Virus record (IMG/VR): IMGVR_UViG_3300032829_000258
Coordinates: 1 to 30,347 of that record
Source of the DNA: a virus
Direction: 5' to 3' (one strand)
DNA: 30,347 bases
Positions 1,998-16,496 of this stretch are shown piece by piece. A program made the position numbers and the translations under genes. How positions within the stretch are numbered: position 1 is the first letter of the stretch; each line of letters begins with the position of its first letter. A model generated the notes under the pieces. That model saw only the letters and a list, made by a program, of their open reading frames with translations. It made no database searches and was not told the origin of the DNA.

Positions 1998-2318
1998 CCG
2001 TCAGCACCGTCAGCACCGTCAGCACAATATGCGTCGGATGCGTTGATATGGCTTGCCTCCCTTCGACTTAGAACCACAAAATCCTCTGACAGCCGTAAGA
2101 ATCGCCCCTTACTCCAACCGTCAGCAACCGTCAGCAATCGGCAGCACCTCCAGAGCCCAACCGTCAGCAAAAAAGCCCAACCGTCAGCAACGTATTCGAA
2201 CCGTCAGCAGACCCACCCATGCACTCAGAAATCCTCATGTCGATGCCTTCGCTCGGTTTGCGGAATTCGATAGGGCCTGAAATCCATCAACACCGTTGAT
2301 TGCTGACGGTGCTGACGG
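1998..2318. repeat. iteron-like array of the 9-mer CCGTCAGCA; candidate replication origin or protein-loading site
   Basis: The stretch 1915-2345 has no convincing gene. It contains ten exact copies of CCGTCAGCA. Direct copies: 1998-2006, 2007-2015 and 2016-2024 (back to back), 2118-2126, 2128-2136, 2161-2169, 2181-2189 and 2201-2209. Inverted copies: 2301-2309 and 2310-2318. A one-mismatch copy (TCGGCAGCA) is at 2138-2146. Starts at 2118, 2128 and 2138 are 10 bp apart; those at 2161, 2181 and 2201 are 20 bp apart, close to whole helical turns. The array lies just past the 3' end of the primase-helicase gene, and the inverted pair ends 27 nt from its stop. A short AT-rich stretch (GTTAATAAACTCAA) lies near 1940-1953. 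Known phage and plasmid iterons are bound by initiators; that role here is inferred. Confidence 0.65.
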
Positions 2319-2345: not shown

Positions 2346-4733
2346 TCAAAGCGGCGCGCCGCTGCTGTTCTCGCGATTTCGCCAGGTGATCGTAAATAAG
2401 CGTGATGCGCTGCTCTCCTCGGTCCGGGTCCGATGTCCGGGGAACTCCACCTCCACGCCCACCCGGCGCATTGCCGGGGCCAGACGGCGGAGCTGGCCCG
2501 ACAGCCCTCGGGGAGTTCGGGGGAAGCCTCCCCCGTCCCGTGTCGCCGCCGTCGCCTTCTCTCGGAGCAGCTCCAGCAGGTCCAGGCACGTGCCCCGCCA
2601 CTCGCCCCCCGGCATCCGTAGATTCTGTAACTCCACGGCGACCGGGCTCTCCTCCAGCACAAGCGCCGTGGCCTCGTCGCGGTTCGATCGGACGATCCGC
2701 GAGAACTCGCCCGGCGCCGCGCCGAGGTGCCGGCAGACGGCCTCGCCCCATCGTTCAAAGTCCGCCATCCGGATCATCCCGGGCAGTTCCACGCTCGGGT
2801 GCAACTTCATCGCCCCCACCGCCGCGTCGAGCACCGCGCCAAAGATCCGCGGATGCCGCTTCTCGAACTCGCCCCAGAGGACCTTGTCCTCCTTGCGCCG
2901 CTCGTCGGGTATCGGCGGGCACGTCACCAGCAGGGCCCGGTTCAAGAGGTCCGCCCGGTGGGCGAAGTCCTCGATCCCGTTCAAGATCATGGGCCGGGTC
3001 GCCTCGAAGATCTGCGACTCGTCGTTGCTGTAGTGCTTCCGCACCTGGAACCCCGCTCCCGTCGCCAGACGTGAGAGGCTGTCTGAGAACCATGGGGGAA
3101 GCTTGGAAATGTTGTCGACCGTGAACACCCAGCCCGAATTGGCGATCACCATGAAGTCTCGCTGGCTCTCGGGCTGAGACCCCAGCTTAGGTCGGGACGG
3201 GTCGATCACGTGCTTGAGGAGTCGGCATGTCGTGGACTTGGCGCTTCCTTGCTCGCCGGTGACAACGATCACGGGATACGGGCCGCCAGGGACCATCGCC
3301 CAGGTGAGCGCCGCGATCACCAGCTTCCGCGCGTCTTCCCCGTCCAGGTTTAGCAGCTCCCAGAGCTCGGCCAGCTCGGCGCCCGTCGCCGGTTCGGGAA
3401 GCGGGCCCAGTCCACCCGGCCGTCGAAACTTCACCGCCGGGTTCGTGACGATCTCCCACCCCTCGGCCGTGACCTGCACGGCCTGGCCCTTGTCGTTGCC
3501 CATGTCGACGTAGAACTCCAGGCCCGTCGGTCCCTTCGCCGGCCCGATCCGCACCTGCGCCTCGACCTGGGCGTCTCCCTCGAAGCACGCCCGCGCCACC
3601 AGGATGTCCTGGATCCGCTGCACCGCCTCGCTGGTGCATGGCTTCTTGTTCTGCGACCAGAACCGGAAGTTGAGCCACCGGTTCACCGCCAGCGAGGTCG
3701 CCGGATGGTTCTCCTTGTGGCCGTTGATCGGCAATGACACCCACGGATCGCCCGACGGCGTCCGGAAGACTTCCACGCCGTCGGTGAGCCGCAGCAAGAC
3801 GTCGGCGTGCGTCTCGATCTTGAACAGCTCGCCATCACCGTTGCCGTTGCCGTTGTGGTGACCGTTCTTCTTCTCCTCCTCGGGCGGAGGCGGCTCCCAC
3901 TCCGCCGTCTTCTCGGCCAGGATCACGAGCTGCTCGACCGTTCCGCCGGCCGCCAGGAAGTCACTGACGTCTCCCTTCTCCGCCAGGCCGGGCATGATCT
4001 CGACCAGGTCGACGATCTTCACCGTGGCCCCGTGCTCCTTCAGCGACTTCGCCACCATCCGGGCGTGCGCCCGGCCCTTGCCGCCGGGAAAGCGCTTCTC
4101 CGCCGTATCGTTGTCGGGGATCACGTAGCAGATCCGGCCGCGGAGGTCCTCCGCGTATCGGTCACGCCACTTCAATGCCCCCATCACATTGCAGGTCGCG
4201 ACGAGCCCGCGCTTGACCAGGTTGTCGACATCCTTCTCTCCCTCGACGATCCAGACCGGTTTCACCGGGTCGGCCGCGAGCAGCTCGGGGAGACGGTAGA
4301 GGACAGGATGGATCTCCTCGAACACGTCCTTGGTGATGAAACCGCCATTACCGTCGGGCCTGCGCTGGCTGAATGACTTCGACCCGTCGGGCCGCTGCCA
4401 TCGCAGGGTCTCGTGCAGCAGCTTGCCGTCGCGATCGTGGTAACGGTAGATCGCCACCACGTTGCCCCGGCCGCTCTTCTTGCTTCCCTGCCCACTACTC
4501 ACCGCCTCTCCGTGCGTCGATCCGCAGTCGCACGCCCCGCGCCGCCGGTGGCTGAAGGTTCGTGAGCCCTCGTGGAACTTGCACCCGGGAGAGCAGTCCT
4601 CCCGGGTGCAGTGGATCCAGTCATCCGTCAAGAAGCCGAAGCATCGCTTCCCCTCGCCGCGAGGCTCGTGCTCGCTGCCTCCGCAAACCGGGCAGGGATG
4701 ATCGGCCGTGAATCGCTGGATCCCGTCAGACAT
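2346..4733 (-). CDS. bifunctional phage DNA primase-helicase (zinc finger, Toprim, P-loop ATPase)
   Basis: About 795 residues. An N-terminal zinc-binding region has CPVC near residue 14, further Cys pairs (CTREDCSPGC) and CDC. A Toprim primase core follows, with VEGEKD near 164 (the catalytic acidic motif), PDNDTA near 206 and the family-typical KGDVSDFL near 253. A low-complexity Asn/Gly/His linker (near 290-301) separates this from an ATPase domain with Walker A GEQGSAKST near 493 and a Walker B-like VFTVDN near 536. Such proteins make primers and unwind DNA at phage forks. I chose the ATG at 4733 because GGAG lies 9 nt before it and it overlaps the ERF stop; ATGs at 4739 and 4748 are alternatives. 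It is the last gene before the iteron-like repeats. Confidence 0.9.
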   Translation of the reverse strand: MSDGIQRFTADHPCPVCGGSEHEPRGEGKRCFGFLTDDWIHCTREDCSPGCKFHEGSRTFSHRRRGACDCGSTHGEAVSSGQGSKKSGRGNVVAIYRYHDRDGKLLHETLRWQRPDGSKSFSQRRPDGNGGFITKDVFEEIHPVLYRLPELLAADPVKPVWIVEGEKDVDNLVKRGLVATCNVMGALKWRDRYAEDLRGRICYVIPDNDTAEKRFPGGKGRAHARMVAKSLKEHGATVKIVDLVEIMPGLAEKGDVSDFLAAGGTVEQLVILAEKTAEWEPPPPEEEKKNGHHNGNGNGDGELFKIETHADVLLRLTDGVEVFRTPSGDPWVSLPINGHKENHPATSLAVNRWLNFRFWSQNKKPCTSEAVQRIQDILVARACFEGDAQVEAQVRIGPAKGPTGLEFYVDMGNDKGQAVQVTAEGWEIVTNPAVKFRRPGGLGPLPEPATGAELAELWELLNLDGEDARKLVIAALTWAMVPGGPYPVIVVTGEQGSAKSTTCRLLKHVIDPSRPKLGSQPESQRDFMVIANSGWVFTVDNISKLPPWFSDSLSRLATGAGFQVRKHYSNDESQIFEATRPMILNGIEDFAHRADLLNRALLVTCPPIPDERRKEDKVLWGEFEKRHPRIFGAVLDAAVGAMKLHPSVELPGMIRMADFERWGEAVCRHLGAAPGEFSRIVRSNRDEATALVLEESPVAVELQNLRMPGGEWRGTCLDLLELLREKATAATRDGGGFPRTPRGLSGQLRRLAPAMRRVGVEVEFPGHRTRTEESSASRLFTITWRNRENSSGAPL

Positions 4734-5544
4734 GACCATTGACTCCATTGCGCTCCGTCGCGCCGTTGGTGCCCTTTGGAGGCCGGCTGTCCGTTCCGGC
4801 CGCCCGGAAATGCTCCGCCGCGATCTGCCAGCCCTCCGCGGCCTGGCTCGGACTCCACTCGATCAGCCGTTGCGGCCATCGGCGATTTGCGCCGAGGTCG
4901 CGTAAGAACCGCATCGTCTCGTTGCTGCCCAGCTTCGTGTCCCGGGCGCGGGCCTTGCGGTATAGCTCCTTGCCGTCTGCCGGCGCTGCCACCTTCGGCA
5001 ACCCATTGAGCACCAGCGGCTCACCGACTGATGTTTGGCGAGGGTCTCCTGGCCCCGCCGTCCGCCCACCGACTGATGTTCGGCGCGGGTCTCCTGACCC
5101 CGCCATCCGCCCACGGTCGACTGCCCCTCTCGCCGCCGCCCCGTCGTCGTCCTCGCACGCCAGTGACAGGATCGCCAGCAGGGCATAGCGGCGAATGTAA
5201 GTGATGGCCGACCCCAGGCGCTGGGGATCCGACCAGGCCGCCACCACCGGGATTTCGCTGGCGATCCACTGGCCCGACTGGTGCAAGACCGTGGTTCGCA
5301 GGTAGCTCAGATGCTGGATCCGACCGTCGGTGTGCTGCGTCTTGCACGGCACAAACGTCTGCGTGACTGCCAGCCCGGCCTGGGCAAGCGCCGGGCGAAT
5401 CGTCTCCATCACCGCGGCCAGGTCGGCGTAGCGGTACACCCGCGTGCCCGCCTGGGCCTCCTGGGTCTTCGAGACAGACTCGACGTGCGACTGAAACTGC
5501 ACGAGTGCGGCGCTCAAAATTTCGATCTTCTCAGAGCTGTTCAT
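4726..5544 (-). CDS. ERF-family single-strand annealing recombinase
   Basis: 272 residues, the usual size for ERF proteins. Conserved ERF blocks are visible: YRYADLAAVMETIRPAL with the following QAGLAVTQ (about 37-62) and LGSAITYIRRYALL with the following CEDDDG (about 110-135). ERF proteins anneal single strands in phage recombination and in restarting or circularising replication. GGAG lies 8 nt before the ATG. The gene overlaps the primase-helicase by 8 nt, so recombination and replication proteins are probably made together. Between the conserved core and the C-terminal region sits a duplicated 15-residue segment (about residues 144-173) that is not part of the family core; it is listed separately. 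Confidence 0.9.
   Translation of the reverse strand: MNSSEKIEILSAALVQFQSHVESVSKTQEAQAGTRVYRYADLAAVMETIRPALAQAGLAVTQTFVPCKTQHTDGRIQHLSYLRTTVLHQSGQWIASEIPVVAAWSDPQRLGSAITYIRRYALLAILSLACEDDDGAAARGAVDRGRMAGSGDPRRTSVGGRTAGPGDPRQTSVGEPLVLNGLPKVAAPADGKELYRKARARDTKLGSNETMRFLRDLGANRRWPQRLIEWSPSQAAEGWQIAAEHFRAAGTDSRPPKGTNGATERNGVNGHV
5023..5112 (-). repeat. two 45-bp direct repeats inside the ERF gene
   Basis: Units 5023-5067 and 5068-5112 differ at four positions. Each encodes 15 residues, GRMAGSGDPRRTSVG and GRTAGPGDPRQTSVG. Because 45 is a multiple of three, the reading frame is kept. I recall similar GDPRRTSVGG-type repeats as dispersed elements in planctomycete genomes, but cannot check that here. 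Confidence 0.85.
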
Positions 5545-6960: not shown

Positions 6961-7323
6961 TCACCTGGACAACTGCTTGGCATAAGCAAGCAGGCGCCGG
7001 AGCCGGGGAATCTCGTACTCCTCACCGCTCCAACTGCCCACCAGGTCGGTCACCTCTTCCCAGAGTGCGTCGGCCACCTCGGTGTGCTGGTCCTCCTGAC
7101 AGTCGCAGCAGACGTCCGGAAATTCCTCGCCCATGTCGTCAACGTGGTAGTGGTCATGGCACCGCGCACAGACGCGGAAGAACTTGCCATAGCACCTGGG
7201 GCAGTAGCCGCCGTGCTCCTCCACCTCGGCCAGCGTGATCCGCTCGCCGCACTCCTCGCACTGCTGAAGCTCATCGAGCTCCTCATCAGTCACTTCCGCT
7301 TCGGTCGTCTCGATCGTGGACAT
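6961..7323 (-). CDS. zinc-ribbon protein, first gene of the leftward early region (120 aa)
   Basis: Starts MSTIETTEAEVTDEELDEL. AGGAGG lies upstream of this ATG, so the longer open frame extending to 7569 is rejected. Cysteines come in pairs: C22/C25, C41/C44, C52/C55 and C72-C75 (VCCDC), with His residues in HDHYHV between. This suggests two or more zinc sites in an acidic small protein. Such proteins often bind nucleic acid or other proteins. A near-consensus promoter lies directly upstream, facing it, with the divergent RHH gene on the other side, so it is probably an early, regulated gene. Exact function unknown. Confidence 0.75.
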   Translation of the reverse strand: MSTIETTEAEVTDEELDELQQCEECGERITLAEVEEHGGYCPRCYGKFFRVCARCHDHYHVDDMGEEFPDVCCDCQEDQHTEVADALWEEVTDLVGSWSGEEYEIPRLRRLLAYAKQLSR

Positions 7324-7345
7324 GGTTGTGTCCTCCTCTACCTGT

Positions 7346-7374
7346 AGTATAGCGTCCGTCCATACGCAAGTCAA
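7346..7374 (-). promoter_or_regulatory. sigma-70-like promoter for the leftward early genes
   Basis: On the minus strand, TTGACT (7369-7374), a 17-bp spacer and TATACT (7346-7351) match the consensus at five of six positions in each box. The start point would be near 7339, giving a short leader carrying the AGGAGG of the zinc-ribbon gene. Half of the inverted repeat (7357-7365) lies inside the spacer. Confidence 0.7.
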
Positions 7375-7422
7375 CAGCCTGTTGAAAATTCCGGATCCCG
7401 GGGTATAGTGGGAGTATGGACG
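7357..7422. promoter_or_regulatory. inverted-repeat operator candidate shared by the divergent promoters
   Basis: CGTCCATAC (7357-7365) and GTATGGACG (7414-7422) are exact reverse complements. The first lies between the -35 and -10 of the leftward promoter. The second covers the expected start point (near 7416) of the rightward promoter. Binding of one repressor to both would close both promoters. The RHH protein encoded just to the right is the natural candidate. Confidence 0.55.
7382..7409 (+). promoter_or_regulatory. sigma-70-like promoter for the RHH gene
   Basis: TTGAAA (7382-7387), a 16-bp spacer and TATAGT (7404-7409) resemble the consensus. The start would fall near 7416, about 45 nt before the RHH start codon. 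Confidence 0.6.
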
Positions 7423-7460
7423 CTGATCAAAATTGGGTCGACCTGAAAGGAGACGCTGTG

Positions 7461-7667
7461 ATGGCCAAGGCGAGGAAGCCCGCGGCGAGGGCAGATTCGA
7501 AGGGGGTGGTTCAGCTCGGCGTGCGCGTGACCAGGGAGTATCGAGAATGGCTGGAGGATGTGGCCTCATACGACCGCCGGACCATGGCCGGCCTGGTGGA
7601 CGCGGCCGTGCAGCACTACGCCCAGGCCATCGGCTTCAAGAAGCCGCCCCCCGAACGTGTGCCTTAA
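7461..7667 (+). CDS. ribbon-helix-helix transcription regulator (68 aa)
   Basis: I start the gene at the ATG at 7461 (MAKARKPAARADSKG) because AAAGGAG lies 8 nt upstream; an in-frame ATG at 7416 has no such site and would fall at the transcription start. After a basic N-terminal tail, VVQLGVRVTREYREWLEDVA and TMAGLVDAAVQHYAQAI fit the beta strand plus two helices of CopG/Arc-type dimers. These bind operators through paired beta strands. Its divergent position and the inverted repeat overlapping both promoters point to an autoregulatory lysogeny/early-gene switch. It could instead be an Mnt/Arc-like antirepressor regulator. Confidence 0.75.
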   Translation: MAKARKPAARADSKGVVQLGVRVTREYREWLEDVASYDRRTMAGLVDAAVQHYAQAIGFKKPPPERVP

Positions 7668-7682
7668 CCTGTTCCGCGCATG

Positions 7683-7734
7683 AAAAAACCCCCGCGGAGG
7701 CCACTTTGAGTTTGGCGAGTAACCTCCGCGAGGG
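7683..7734 (-). terminator. rho-independent terminator, leftward
   Basis: On the minus strand an 11-bp GC-rich stem (CGCGGAGG 7693-7700 pairing with CCTCCGCG 7723-7730, extended by GGG/CCC around one bulged base) is followed by TTTTTT (complement of 7683-7688). It would end leftward transcription coming from the 58-residue gene at 8277, protecting the RHH gene from antisense reading. Confidence 0.75.
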
Positions 7735-7833
7735 CGAGTTCAGAAAGAACTCCCACTCAACCGCAACTGTACAGGATCTCTCCTGCGAGTTGTAGGTCAA
7801 GCGGGCCAGGGGCCGGCCTTGCGACCGCCCCAT

Positions 7834-7874
7834 CGCGCCTTGCGGGAATCGAACCCGCCGCTACCGTCAGGCGC
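7834..7874 (-). other. tRNA-like minihelix (T-arm plus acceptor-like stem), not a complete tRNA
   Basis: On the minus strand GCGGGTTCGATTCCCGC (7842-7858) is a perfect T-arm with a TTCGATT loop, followed by AAGGCGC. The latter pairs at six of seven positions with GCGCCTG (7868-7874), only 9 nt before the T-arm. A CGCG-ATTGTAA-CGCG arm just upstream (near 7876-7890) resembles an anticodon arm, but no D-arm or matching 5' acceptor strand is present. It may be a decayed tRNA, an old attachment-site scar or a tRNA-mimicking RNA. Confidence 0.3.
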
Positions 7875-7928
7875 GCGTTACAATCGCGGCGTGTTTTCCT
7901 CCTTTCGCTGTCTTGAAAGGACCCGAAG

Positions 7929-8153
7929 ATGAACCTTCACTCTTTTGTGGCTTCGGAGGAGATCCGTGTTGATGCCTGCCGGGCCATCTCCGTCGCCATC
8001 GCGAGGATCGTGGCCAGTCCGGAAAAGGTCTGGAGTCCGGAGTCGCTGAAGATCACGGCCGAAGCCCTGGGCGCGGCGATGGCCGCCGGGCATGAGGCCT
8101 TCATGTCTGGACCTCTTCGAAGTAAGCCCGAAGAGCCTTGTGAAGTTCAGTAA
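7929..8153 (+). CDS. small hypothetical protein (74 aa)
   Basis: Starts MNLHSFVASEEIRVDACRAI. AAAGGA lies 6-7 nt before the ATG. Residues about 10-60 are likely helical (ISVAIARIVASPEKVWSPES). It runs convergent to, and overlaps by about 50 nt, the minus-strand gene ending at 8101. No domain recognised; the good ribosome binding site is the main support. Confidence 0.45.
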   Translation: MNLHSFVASEEIRVDACRAISVAIARIVASPEKVWSPESLKITAEALGAAMAAGHEAFMSGPLRSKPEEPCEVQ

Positions 8154-8277
8154 GGTATTCGGCCTGCTGTCTGGCGTTCTGCTTGGGATCGTTGGCGCCG
8201 GCAACAAAGATCCGCCCGGCCTTCACCATCTCCGTTAGCAGGTACAGCGCCTTCTCATTCGCCTCGGATTTCGTCAT
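8101..8277 (-). CDS. small hypothetical protein (58 aa)
   Basis: Starts MTKSEANEKALYLLTEMVKA, in the lower part of a longer open frame. GAGGGG lies 8 nt before the ATG at 8277, which decides the start. It is probably a helical bundle (QQAEYLTELHKALRAYFEEV). It lies between the attachment-site candidate and the leftward terminator at 7683-7734, which likely ends its transcript. Function unknown. Confidence 0.55.
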   Translation of the reverse strand: MTKSEANEKALYLLTEMVKAGRIFVAGANDPKQNARQQAEYLTELHKALRAYFEEVQT

Positions 8278-8319
8278 TGATTCGGCCCCTCGGCCAGCGA
8301 GAGAGGAAAAGCCCGCCAA

Positions 8320-8361
8320 TATGCCCGGGGGGATTTGAACCCTCAACCTTTGGCTCCGGAG
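8320..8361 (-). other. attachment-site (attP) core candidate: 3' half of tRNA-Arg(CCG)
   Basis: On the minus strand the sequence fits tRNA positions 32-73. CTCCGGA (8355-8361) is an anticodon loop with anticodon CCG, then GCCAA (3' anticodon stem), AGGTT (variable loop), GAGGG-TTCAAAT-CCCCC (T-arm, one A.C mismatch), CGGGCAT (3' acceptor strand) and A73. No 5' half (acceptor strand, D-arm, TTGGC stem) precedes it. A tRNA 3' half starting exactly at the anticodon loop, 85 bp from an integrase gene, is the classic form of an att core that restores the host tRNA on integration. The core contains the palindrome CTCCGGAG (8354-8361). Confidence 0.7.
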
Positions 8362-8445
8362 GGTTGTGGTTATTTGTGAGCGCCCGGGACGTTTGGGCGA
8401 TCTGCGGGTTAGGTCTTCAGGGAGACCGACACACCTGGGGATCTG

Positions 8446-9363
8446 ATGATGCATAAACGCCACACATGGGCGGCGTTCGCCGACGACGTGCTTGCCCTGT
8501 ACGCGCCGCCGATCCGCCGCAAAGCGACCTGGCGAAAGCTCGAACACGTCCTGCGTGAGTTTCAGCCGCTGTGCCGCTATTCCGAGGACCTCACGCCCTC
8601 CGTCGTTGCCGCCTGGATCGCGGCCCACCCGGGACGGAGGCCCGCGACCGTCGATTCCTTCTTGCGGAGCTTGCGGGCCGCTTGCAATTACGGGATGTCC
8701 GCAGGGTATCTCCGCGAAAGTCCGTTTGCCTTTCGGTCGCCCCGACACTGGGTTGATTGGAGTGTTGAGCCGCTCCCTCCGGCAGTGCACACCGCCGAGG
8801 AGATCGCCCGGGTGCTGGCGCGGGCTGATTTCGAAGCCCAGGCCGGCCGCTGGCGCAATCTCAGGCTCAGGGCGGTGATTTATACCGCCGCGTTCACGGG
8901 GGCCCGCAAACGCGAGATTCTTGCCGCTTGCGTGGCCGATTTGCAACTAGACCAGGGGCTGATGACGATCCGGCCGAACGCCCGACGGCCGCTCAAGACC
9001 CCGAGCTCGGCCGCGCAGATCCCGCTGGCGCCCCCGCTGGTTGCCGTGCTGGAGGGGTGGGTTGCAATCTGCGGGTCCCCCTGGCTCTTCCCCGGCATCC
9101 GTCGTCAGGGCCCCTGGCTCGAGGGGCCGGCTGGCGCCAAGGCGCTCGACCAAGTCAAAGGCCTGGGATTGCGGGCCGGCGTGCGGGGCCTGACGTTCCA
9201 GAGCTTCCGCCACAGCCTGGCATCGCTGAGCGAGGGGTGGGGAATCGGCGAGCTGGCGCTGCAGCGACTGCTGCGCCATTCGAGCCCGAGGACCCAGGAA
9301 TACTACCGCCACGCGATCCCCGCCGTGCTCCGTGATGTGGCGGCGCGGATCCACTTTCCTTGA
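8446..9363 (+). CDS. int: tyrosine recombinase / phage integrase
   Basis: 305 residues. The N-terminal half (about 1-110) is a helical core-binding domain. The catalytic domain shows Arg154 in TGARKREIL, Lys184 after the beta turn, Arg255-His256 in FQSFRHSLAS, His278 in LLRHSSPRT and Tyr287 in QEYYRH, nine residues after that His as in XerD. The usual His three residues before the second Arg is Gln252, a tolerated variation in some members. The enzyme would recombine attP with the host tRNA gene. It starts at one of two adjacent ATGs (8446 or 8449) after GGGG. It reads away from the tRNA-Arg half-site, as is common. Confidence 0.92.
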   Translation: MMHKRHTWAAFADDVLALYAPPIRRKATWRKLEHVLREFQPLCRYSEDLTPSVVAAWIAAHPGRRPATVDSFLRSLRAACNYGMSAGYLRESPFAFRSPRHWVDWSVEPLPPAVHTAEEIARVLARADFEAQAGRWRNLRLRAVIYTAAFTGARKREILAACVADLQLDQGLMTIRPNARRPLKTPSSAAQIPLAPPLVAVLEGWVAICGSPWLFPGIRRQGPWLEGPAGAKALDQVKGLGLRAGVRGLTFQSFRHSLASLSEGWGIGELALQRLLRHSSPRTQEYYRHAIPAVLRDVAARIHFP

Positions 9364-15809: not shown

Positions 15810-16496
15810 TCACCCTGCCCTGATTTCGAGCTTCGCCCACCGCACGAGCGAGTCCTTGAGCTTGACGACGCCGCCAGGCCGCACGCCGCGGAGATCGTAC
15901 TGGGGATTGTTTCCCTCGCCGTCGAAGTGACAGTGCAGAAACTTCTCGCCCTTCTGGTTGACGACCTCGAACCACGCGCCCTCGGCGTACCAGACGCTGG
16001 GGTTGTCGACGTTGCGGCCATGCCCCGTCAGCAGGTTGGTGATGACTCGCGAGAATTGCCGGCGGGGTGCGAGCCGCGGGCCGGTGAGCTTGCGGTACTC
16101 GGCGCTGGTCAGGTTGTTGTGCAGGCCCGACGCCGCCGGGCCGTGTCCGGCGAAAATACCCCGCCGCTTGCTGTGATGCTGACCCAGGCGCTGGGCCACG
16201 GTCAGCTTGGGAAGCGGTTCGCGGACGTGCGTGATCACGCTGTTGAGTCGCCCGCCCCGCGGCCCGTAGATCGCGACCCGGATGCGTCGCGACGTCGGCC
16301 GGTAGCGGAGCGGCGGCGCCGCGTGGCCGTCCTTGTCGGTGCCGGCGAGCACGCCCTCGCGGTTGTCGTCCTCGATCACCCGCTCCCAGTGCTCCATGAG
16401 CGGGCCGGCGCGGTCGGCGATATGCTCGATGCGCACGAGCCGCCGACGCAGACGCTCGAAGCCGGCCAGGGCGTTGTCAATGCGGAGCGTGAGCAT
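15810..16496 (-). CDS. tail completion/virion morphogenesis-like protein (228 aa)
   Basis: I chose the ATG at 16496 (MLTLRIDNALAGFERLRRRL) because AAAGGA lies 9 nt upstream; the 71 codons before it are Arg/Ser shadow sequence. The helical N-terminus followed by a basic, Gly-rich middle (PRGGRLNSVITHVREPLPKL) recalls phage virion morphogenesis (gpS/gpG-type) proteins. The C-terminal part (NNPSVW..., FHCHF) is beta-rich. It sits two genes before the tape measure end of the tail module, which fits tail completion. The family call is by context and pattern only. Confidence 0.5.
   Translation of the reverse strand: MLTLRIDNALAGFERLRRRLVRIEHIADRAGPLMEHWERVIEDDNREGVLAGTDKDGHAAPPLRYRPTSRRIRVAIYGPRGGRLNSVITHVREPLPKLTVAQRLGQHHSKRRGIFAGHGPAASGLHNNLTSAEYRKLTGPRLAPRRQFSRVITNLLTGHGRNVDNPSVWYAEGAWFEVVNQKGEKFLHCHFDGEGNNPQYDLRGVRPGGVVKLKDSLVRWAKLEIRAG

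Follow-up and report, generated by a model that had tools for sequence, protein, structure and literature searches.

A 9-bp iteron array directly 3' of a phage primase-helicase gene is a probable replication origin resembling those of phage satellites

Analysis of a 30,347-bp IMG/VR virus record, the whole of which is called the window below, revealed an array of ten exact copies of the 9-mer CCGTCAGCA at positions 1998-2318, eight on the plus strand and two on the minus strand, beside a gene encoding a primase-helicase. This array is very probably the replication origin of the phage, and the adjacent primase-helicase is its likely initiator. The proposed initiation pathway includes three steps: (i) the C-terminal winged helix of the primase-helicase would bind the 9-bp iterons, (ii) two helicase hexamers would assemble on the opposed iteron clusters, between which the GC content is lower, and (iii) the hexamers would melt the duplex, allowing priming in both directions. 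An initiator-binding region at this place had been suggested in the initial annotation, and that suggestion is supported by the conserved position of the arrays, their 9-bp pitch, their shared core, and the structural match of the protein to the primase-helicase of SaPI5.

Exact copies of CCGTCAGCA start at positions 1998, 2007, 2016, 2118, 2128, 2161, 2181, and 2201 on the plus strand and at 2301 and 2310 on the minus strand, with successive spacings of 9, 9, 102, 10, 33, 20, 20, 100, and 9 bp. Within 330 bp, the most frequent 9-mer is present 10 times, compared with 2-4 times in 40 dinucleotide shuffles, and outside the array the exact 9-mer occurs only twice more in the window, at 16025 and 24212. 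Exact matching and shuffling thus confirm the repeats that had been annotated, eight direct and two inverted in a stretch (1998-2318) without a convincing gene. The distal cluster (1998-2024, plus strand) consists of three abutting 9-bp iterons, ACCGTCAGC(A), which point back to the primase gene when read in the gene direction. It is followed on the same strand by a pair of exact copies with 10-bp spacing (2118-2136) and a triplet of exact copies with 20-bp spacing (2161, 2181, and 2201; 2161-2209). The gene-proximal cluster (2301-2318, minus strand) contains two abutting iterons in the opposite orientation. The gap between the opposed iterons (2210-2300) has a GC content of about 0.50 versus 0.65 in the window and is a candidate melting stretch. 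The array is enclosed by an imperfect 36-bp inverted repeat (33/36 matching positions) with arms at 1980-2015 on the plus strand and 2301-2336 on the minus strand, which had been overlooked in the first reading of the sequence.

Phasing of 10 and 20 bp had been proposed for the array. Both spacings do occur; however, they are secondary, since the dominant pitch is the 9 bp of the abutting copies, which had been missed. The 10- and 20-bp spacings place copies on one face of the helix in the window, and initiators often autoregulate; both points would fit an operator at which a repressor or the primase-helicase itself controls transcription of the replication genes. We nevertheless consider a regulatory array of this kind unlikely, because the arrays of nearly all relatives described below lie 3' of the gene, often within its coding end, rather than at a promoter, and because array and helicase gene occur together in elements that otherwise differ greatly.

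The minus strand carries the primase-helicase gene at positions 2346-4748, where 2346 marks the end of the stop codon; therefore, the array lies directly 3' of the gene, 28 bp beyond the stop codon (2318 to 2346). The encoded protein of 800 amino acids, the candidate initiator, combines a Toprim (DnaG-like) primase, a D5/SF3-like helicase, and a C-terminal winged helix, and has PHROG matches to DNA primases. In the AlphaFold2 model (mean pLDDT of 78), residues 716-789, encoded at 2382-2603 on the minus strand, form a strand, three helices, a strand, a wing, and a strand; this predicted winged helix is the candidate iteron reader. The top match in VIA-align is the SaPI5 primase-helicase (7ola; Z 19.8, rmsd 6.5 over 380 residues), and the alignment extends into the winged helix; the same protein is ranked second by Foldseek. 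The next fold matches, vaccinia D5, monkeypox E5, and AsfvPrimPol, are all helicases of the same kind, and N-terminal residues 85-299 match a DnaG-type core (2au3, Z 15.3). When compared with PDB on its own, separately from the rest of the protein, the winged helix gave only generic winged-helix matches, none at an E value of 0.001 or better. Judged from the model, the protein is a D5/SF3-like helicase with a predicted C-terminal DNA-binding domain, as in initiators of the PICI type.

To compare the array with those of related elements, homologues of the primase-helicase were gathered from viral contigs and planctomycete genomes. A single-protein search of viral contigs with the primase gave no matches, and the homologues came from alignment-based searches; the only genome relative obtained by direct search belongs to a Planctomycetales bacterium (41% identity). 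In the first set, a 9-bp tandem was found near the gene 3' end in 24 of 43 loci, compared with 3 of 44 controls. The enlarged set comprised 107 unique loci, 104 of them with enough sequence. A tandem with a 9-bp period is present near the gene 3' end in 67 of these 104 loci versus 4 of 103 equal-length upstream controls, and a clear one is absent from the other 37. Lags other than 9 bp, up to 17 bp, were seen in at most 19 of the 104 loci, and lag 18 (2 x 9) in 37. Because the loci, most of which stem from a single phylum and from viral contigs, are mutually related, these counts do not represent independent events.

The array is on the same (3') side of the gene in most relatives, and its sequence differs between them. 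At the Planctomycetales locus, the homologous gene is directly followed by an array of another sequence, ATCGTCCCC, and further relatives have ACCGTCTAC, CGGCGCAAA, CCGTAGTCA, and others at the same position. The occurrence of different sequences at the same place argues for a function and against a copied repeat. It thereby bears on another explanation, suggested by the 36-bp inverted repeat that encloses the array of the window, namely a MITE-like mobile repeat with terminal inverted repeats that landed by chance beside the primase gene. Such an insertion is highly improbable, given also that no obvious target-site duplication is seen and that flanking symmetry is not general among the relatives. 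At one locus (L008, 3489-6960), the repeat of the window, ACCGTCAGC, stands 5' of its primase-helicase gene, whose product differs in the N-terminal part. Two of the three contigs with a shared 20-mer, L009 (judged by reading) and L010 (judged by its repeat profile), look like collagen-like coding repeats and were rejected as chance matches.

Comparison of one tandem unit per locus, with strand and phase left free and fitted by expectation maximisation, showed that the 69 units from 69 loci converge on a common core, ANCGTC, with a variable triplet after it. In total, the aligned unit carries 8.3 bits of information, compared with at most 5.2 bits in letter-shuffled units given the same freedom. 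The four CGTC positions are conserved in 88-93% of units and the A in 74%; exceptions include L017, L026, and L029. The layout was analyzed in the 58 loci at which the unit of the locus occurs at least three times (median of 7 copies). Same-strand spacings of 9 bp (129 cases) prevail over those of 11 bp (13), 12 bp (11), and 10 bp (7). In 32 of the 58 loci, the copies converge (a forward copy comes first and a reverse copy last), and in 7 they diverge; among loci with two or more tandem clusters, the outermost clusters are convergent in 16, divergent in 5, and in the same direction in 9. Of 49 gaps between opposed copies, 38 have a higher AT content than their locus, the enrichment being modest.

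The first copy precedes the ORF stop in 51 of the 58 loci; the array of the window is outside the gene. Some of these repeats are visibly translated as three-residue repeats in the C-terminal tail of the primase-helicase, for example, PDGPDGPDG, VHGVHGG, and DDADDADD. Sites of translated repeats lie at about 785-825 in L027, at 4380-4640 in L073, and at the ORF end near 3915 in L016. The repeat co-varies weakly with the protein (Mantel r 0.19, P 0.005), and the correlation falls to r 0.09 (P 0.085) once corrected for helicase distance; this approach does not allow iteron specificity to be attributed to the winged helix. A wing sequence shared by the window and L008, RTExSSxxR, was considered as the setter of the motif and was not borne out by L120, L122, and L123, which have the same iteron.

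Homologues of the helicase are also present in plasmids. In the Stanieria plasmids, CGTCAG repeats are found just past the stop codon, and in the archaeal plasmid pH6Ac of Methanothrix harundinacea, 9-bp direct and inverted repeats lie within the 3' part of the gene. The large replication protein of pH6Ac (L073, 11,991 bp) is 45% identical to that of the viral contig L027 in the helicase part, a likeness at the sequence level that suggests transfer between domains. Two Methylobacterium plasmids, two Streptomyces plasmids, and phage Zeta1847 encode a homologue and have no 9-bp tandems at the gene 3' end.

A minimum of GC skew had been expected at the array; it lies near 8 kb instead. The skew extremes are away from the repeats in both the window and pH6Ac, and the skew of the window, pH6Ac, and the two Methylobacterium plasmids gives no origin signal at the gene end. 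The sign of the skew in the window changes at about 7000-8500, just before the integrase gene, and the long genes on either side are mostly on the minus strand.

Apart from the replication gene, the window has genes for an integrase and an Erf-like annealing protein and, among the structural proteins, for a major head protein and for tail or baseplate-like proteins. Because of these genes, the element is a phage, probably a temperate one, rather than a satellite. The presence of the integrase and structural genes lends no support to the phage-plasmid lifestyle that had been proposed, and plasmid maintenance genes were not seen among the scanned proteins, which represent a part of the ORFs of a possibly incomplete record. 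Two putative glycosyltransferase genes with weak PHROG matches were observed among the phage genes (23266-25607, minus strand).

A 286-amino-acid protein with three Myb/HTH domains is encoded at 357-1217 on the minus strand; it has a PHROG match to a D5-like transcriptional regulator and weak matches to a ParB-type HTH and to KorB. The initial annotation had named this protein as a binding candidate and a partition protein as a possible ligand of the array. Indeed, the combination of direct and inverted repeats, together with the ParB-type HTH and KorB matches, is what might be seen if the array were a centromere-like partition site to which the element's own ParB-like or Myb-like protein binds. 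This explanation appears very unlikely, since the position of the array is tied to the primase-helicase, the retrieved flanking sequences of the relatives, most of which have the array, contain no homologue of the Myb-like protein, and neither a ParA nor a ParB partner was seen among the scanned proteins, the weak ParB-type match inside the Myb-like protein excepted. The same distribution in the relatives argues against the Myb-like protein as the binder.

An origin read by the primase-helicase has clear counterparts among known replicons. The C-terminal domains of SaPI Rep and SCCmec Cch2 bind repeats directly downstream of their own genes (PMC7581432). PICI origins contain two iteron sets around an AT-rich region, and a pri-rep-ori segment drives plasmid maintenance (PMC6092414). 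In P4 alpha, a winged helix binds the origin repeats (PMC4234260). The simplest account would be that the initiator recognises the array just as the origin repeats of these systems are recognised. The putative origin of the window shares several features with SaPI/PICI pri-rep-ori modules: (i) it is directly 3' of the initiator gene, (ii) short iterons form opposed sets around an AT-richer stretch, albeit one of modest enrichment, and (iii) the helicase is of the self-loading type with a DNA-binding C-terminal domain, predicted in the case of the window (PMC7581432, PMC6092414). In contrast to SaPI/PICI, the array of the window belongs to a phage that encodes head and tail proteins itself, whereas PICIs have no virion genes of their own; the primase is of the Toprim (DnaG-like) rather than the AEP type; and the iterons are abutting 9-mers with an ANCGTC core, which in many relatives are inside the coding sequence. 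Thus, the origin would work like a PICI origin, and the element itself is not a PICI.

The fusion of a Toprim primase with a helicase and a C-terminal winged helix in one protein is the architecture of P4 alpha, which binds origin repeats (PMC4234260); the protein of the window is a candidate for the same activity. Unlike the satellite phage P4, the element of the window is not a satellite, and the likeness to alpha described here is one of architecture. The iteron sequence and placement in P4 appear to differ from those of the window. In the crenarchaeal plasmid pRN1, the region directly downstream of the gene for ORF904, a primase-helicase with a C-terminal winged helix, is an essential origin (PMC4234260); unlike the window, it has a large stem-loop and no iterons, and the primase is not of the Toprim type. 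In RepE-type iteron plasmids, iterons are also read by a winged-helix initiator, to which the winged helix of the window gave a generic match (Z about 5); RepE-type initiators are not helicases, whereas the candidate initiator of the window is a primase-helicase.

An origin of the SaPI/PICI-like kind is known, and the best-supported view is that the window contains a variant with abutting 9-mers in a phage with virion genes. A closely similar organisation beside helicases was observed in this phage, in numerous genomes and viral contigs, and also in plasmids; the layout, thought to be confined to origins of small phage satellites, thus seems to have a much wider distribution. The open-access literature that was searched contains no earlier account of such an origin for the archaeal plasmid or for full-size phages of this group. 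More tentatively, with slightly less than even confidence, we propose that these loci form a widespread and as yet undescribed family of origins, found in phages as well as in bacterial elements and one archaeal plasmid, characterized by abutting 9-bp iterons in convergent clusters at the gene 3' end, where they are frequently translated, and by an ANCGTC core with a variable triplet that sets specificity. If this is true, the three variable bases would be a compatibility code between elements. The combination of a fixed pitch, a core, and a variable part may offer a route to the prediction of origins from sequence in uncultured phages, and the same pattern would provide a means to study how initiators discriminate between the cognate origin and foreign ones. 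That an origin should be translated within the very initiator that it serves would be a further oddity of these elements.
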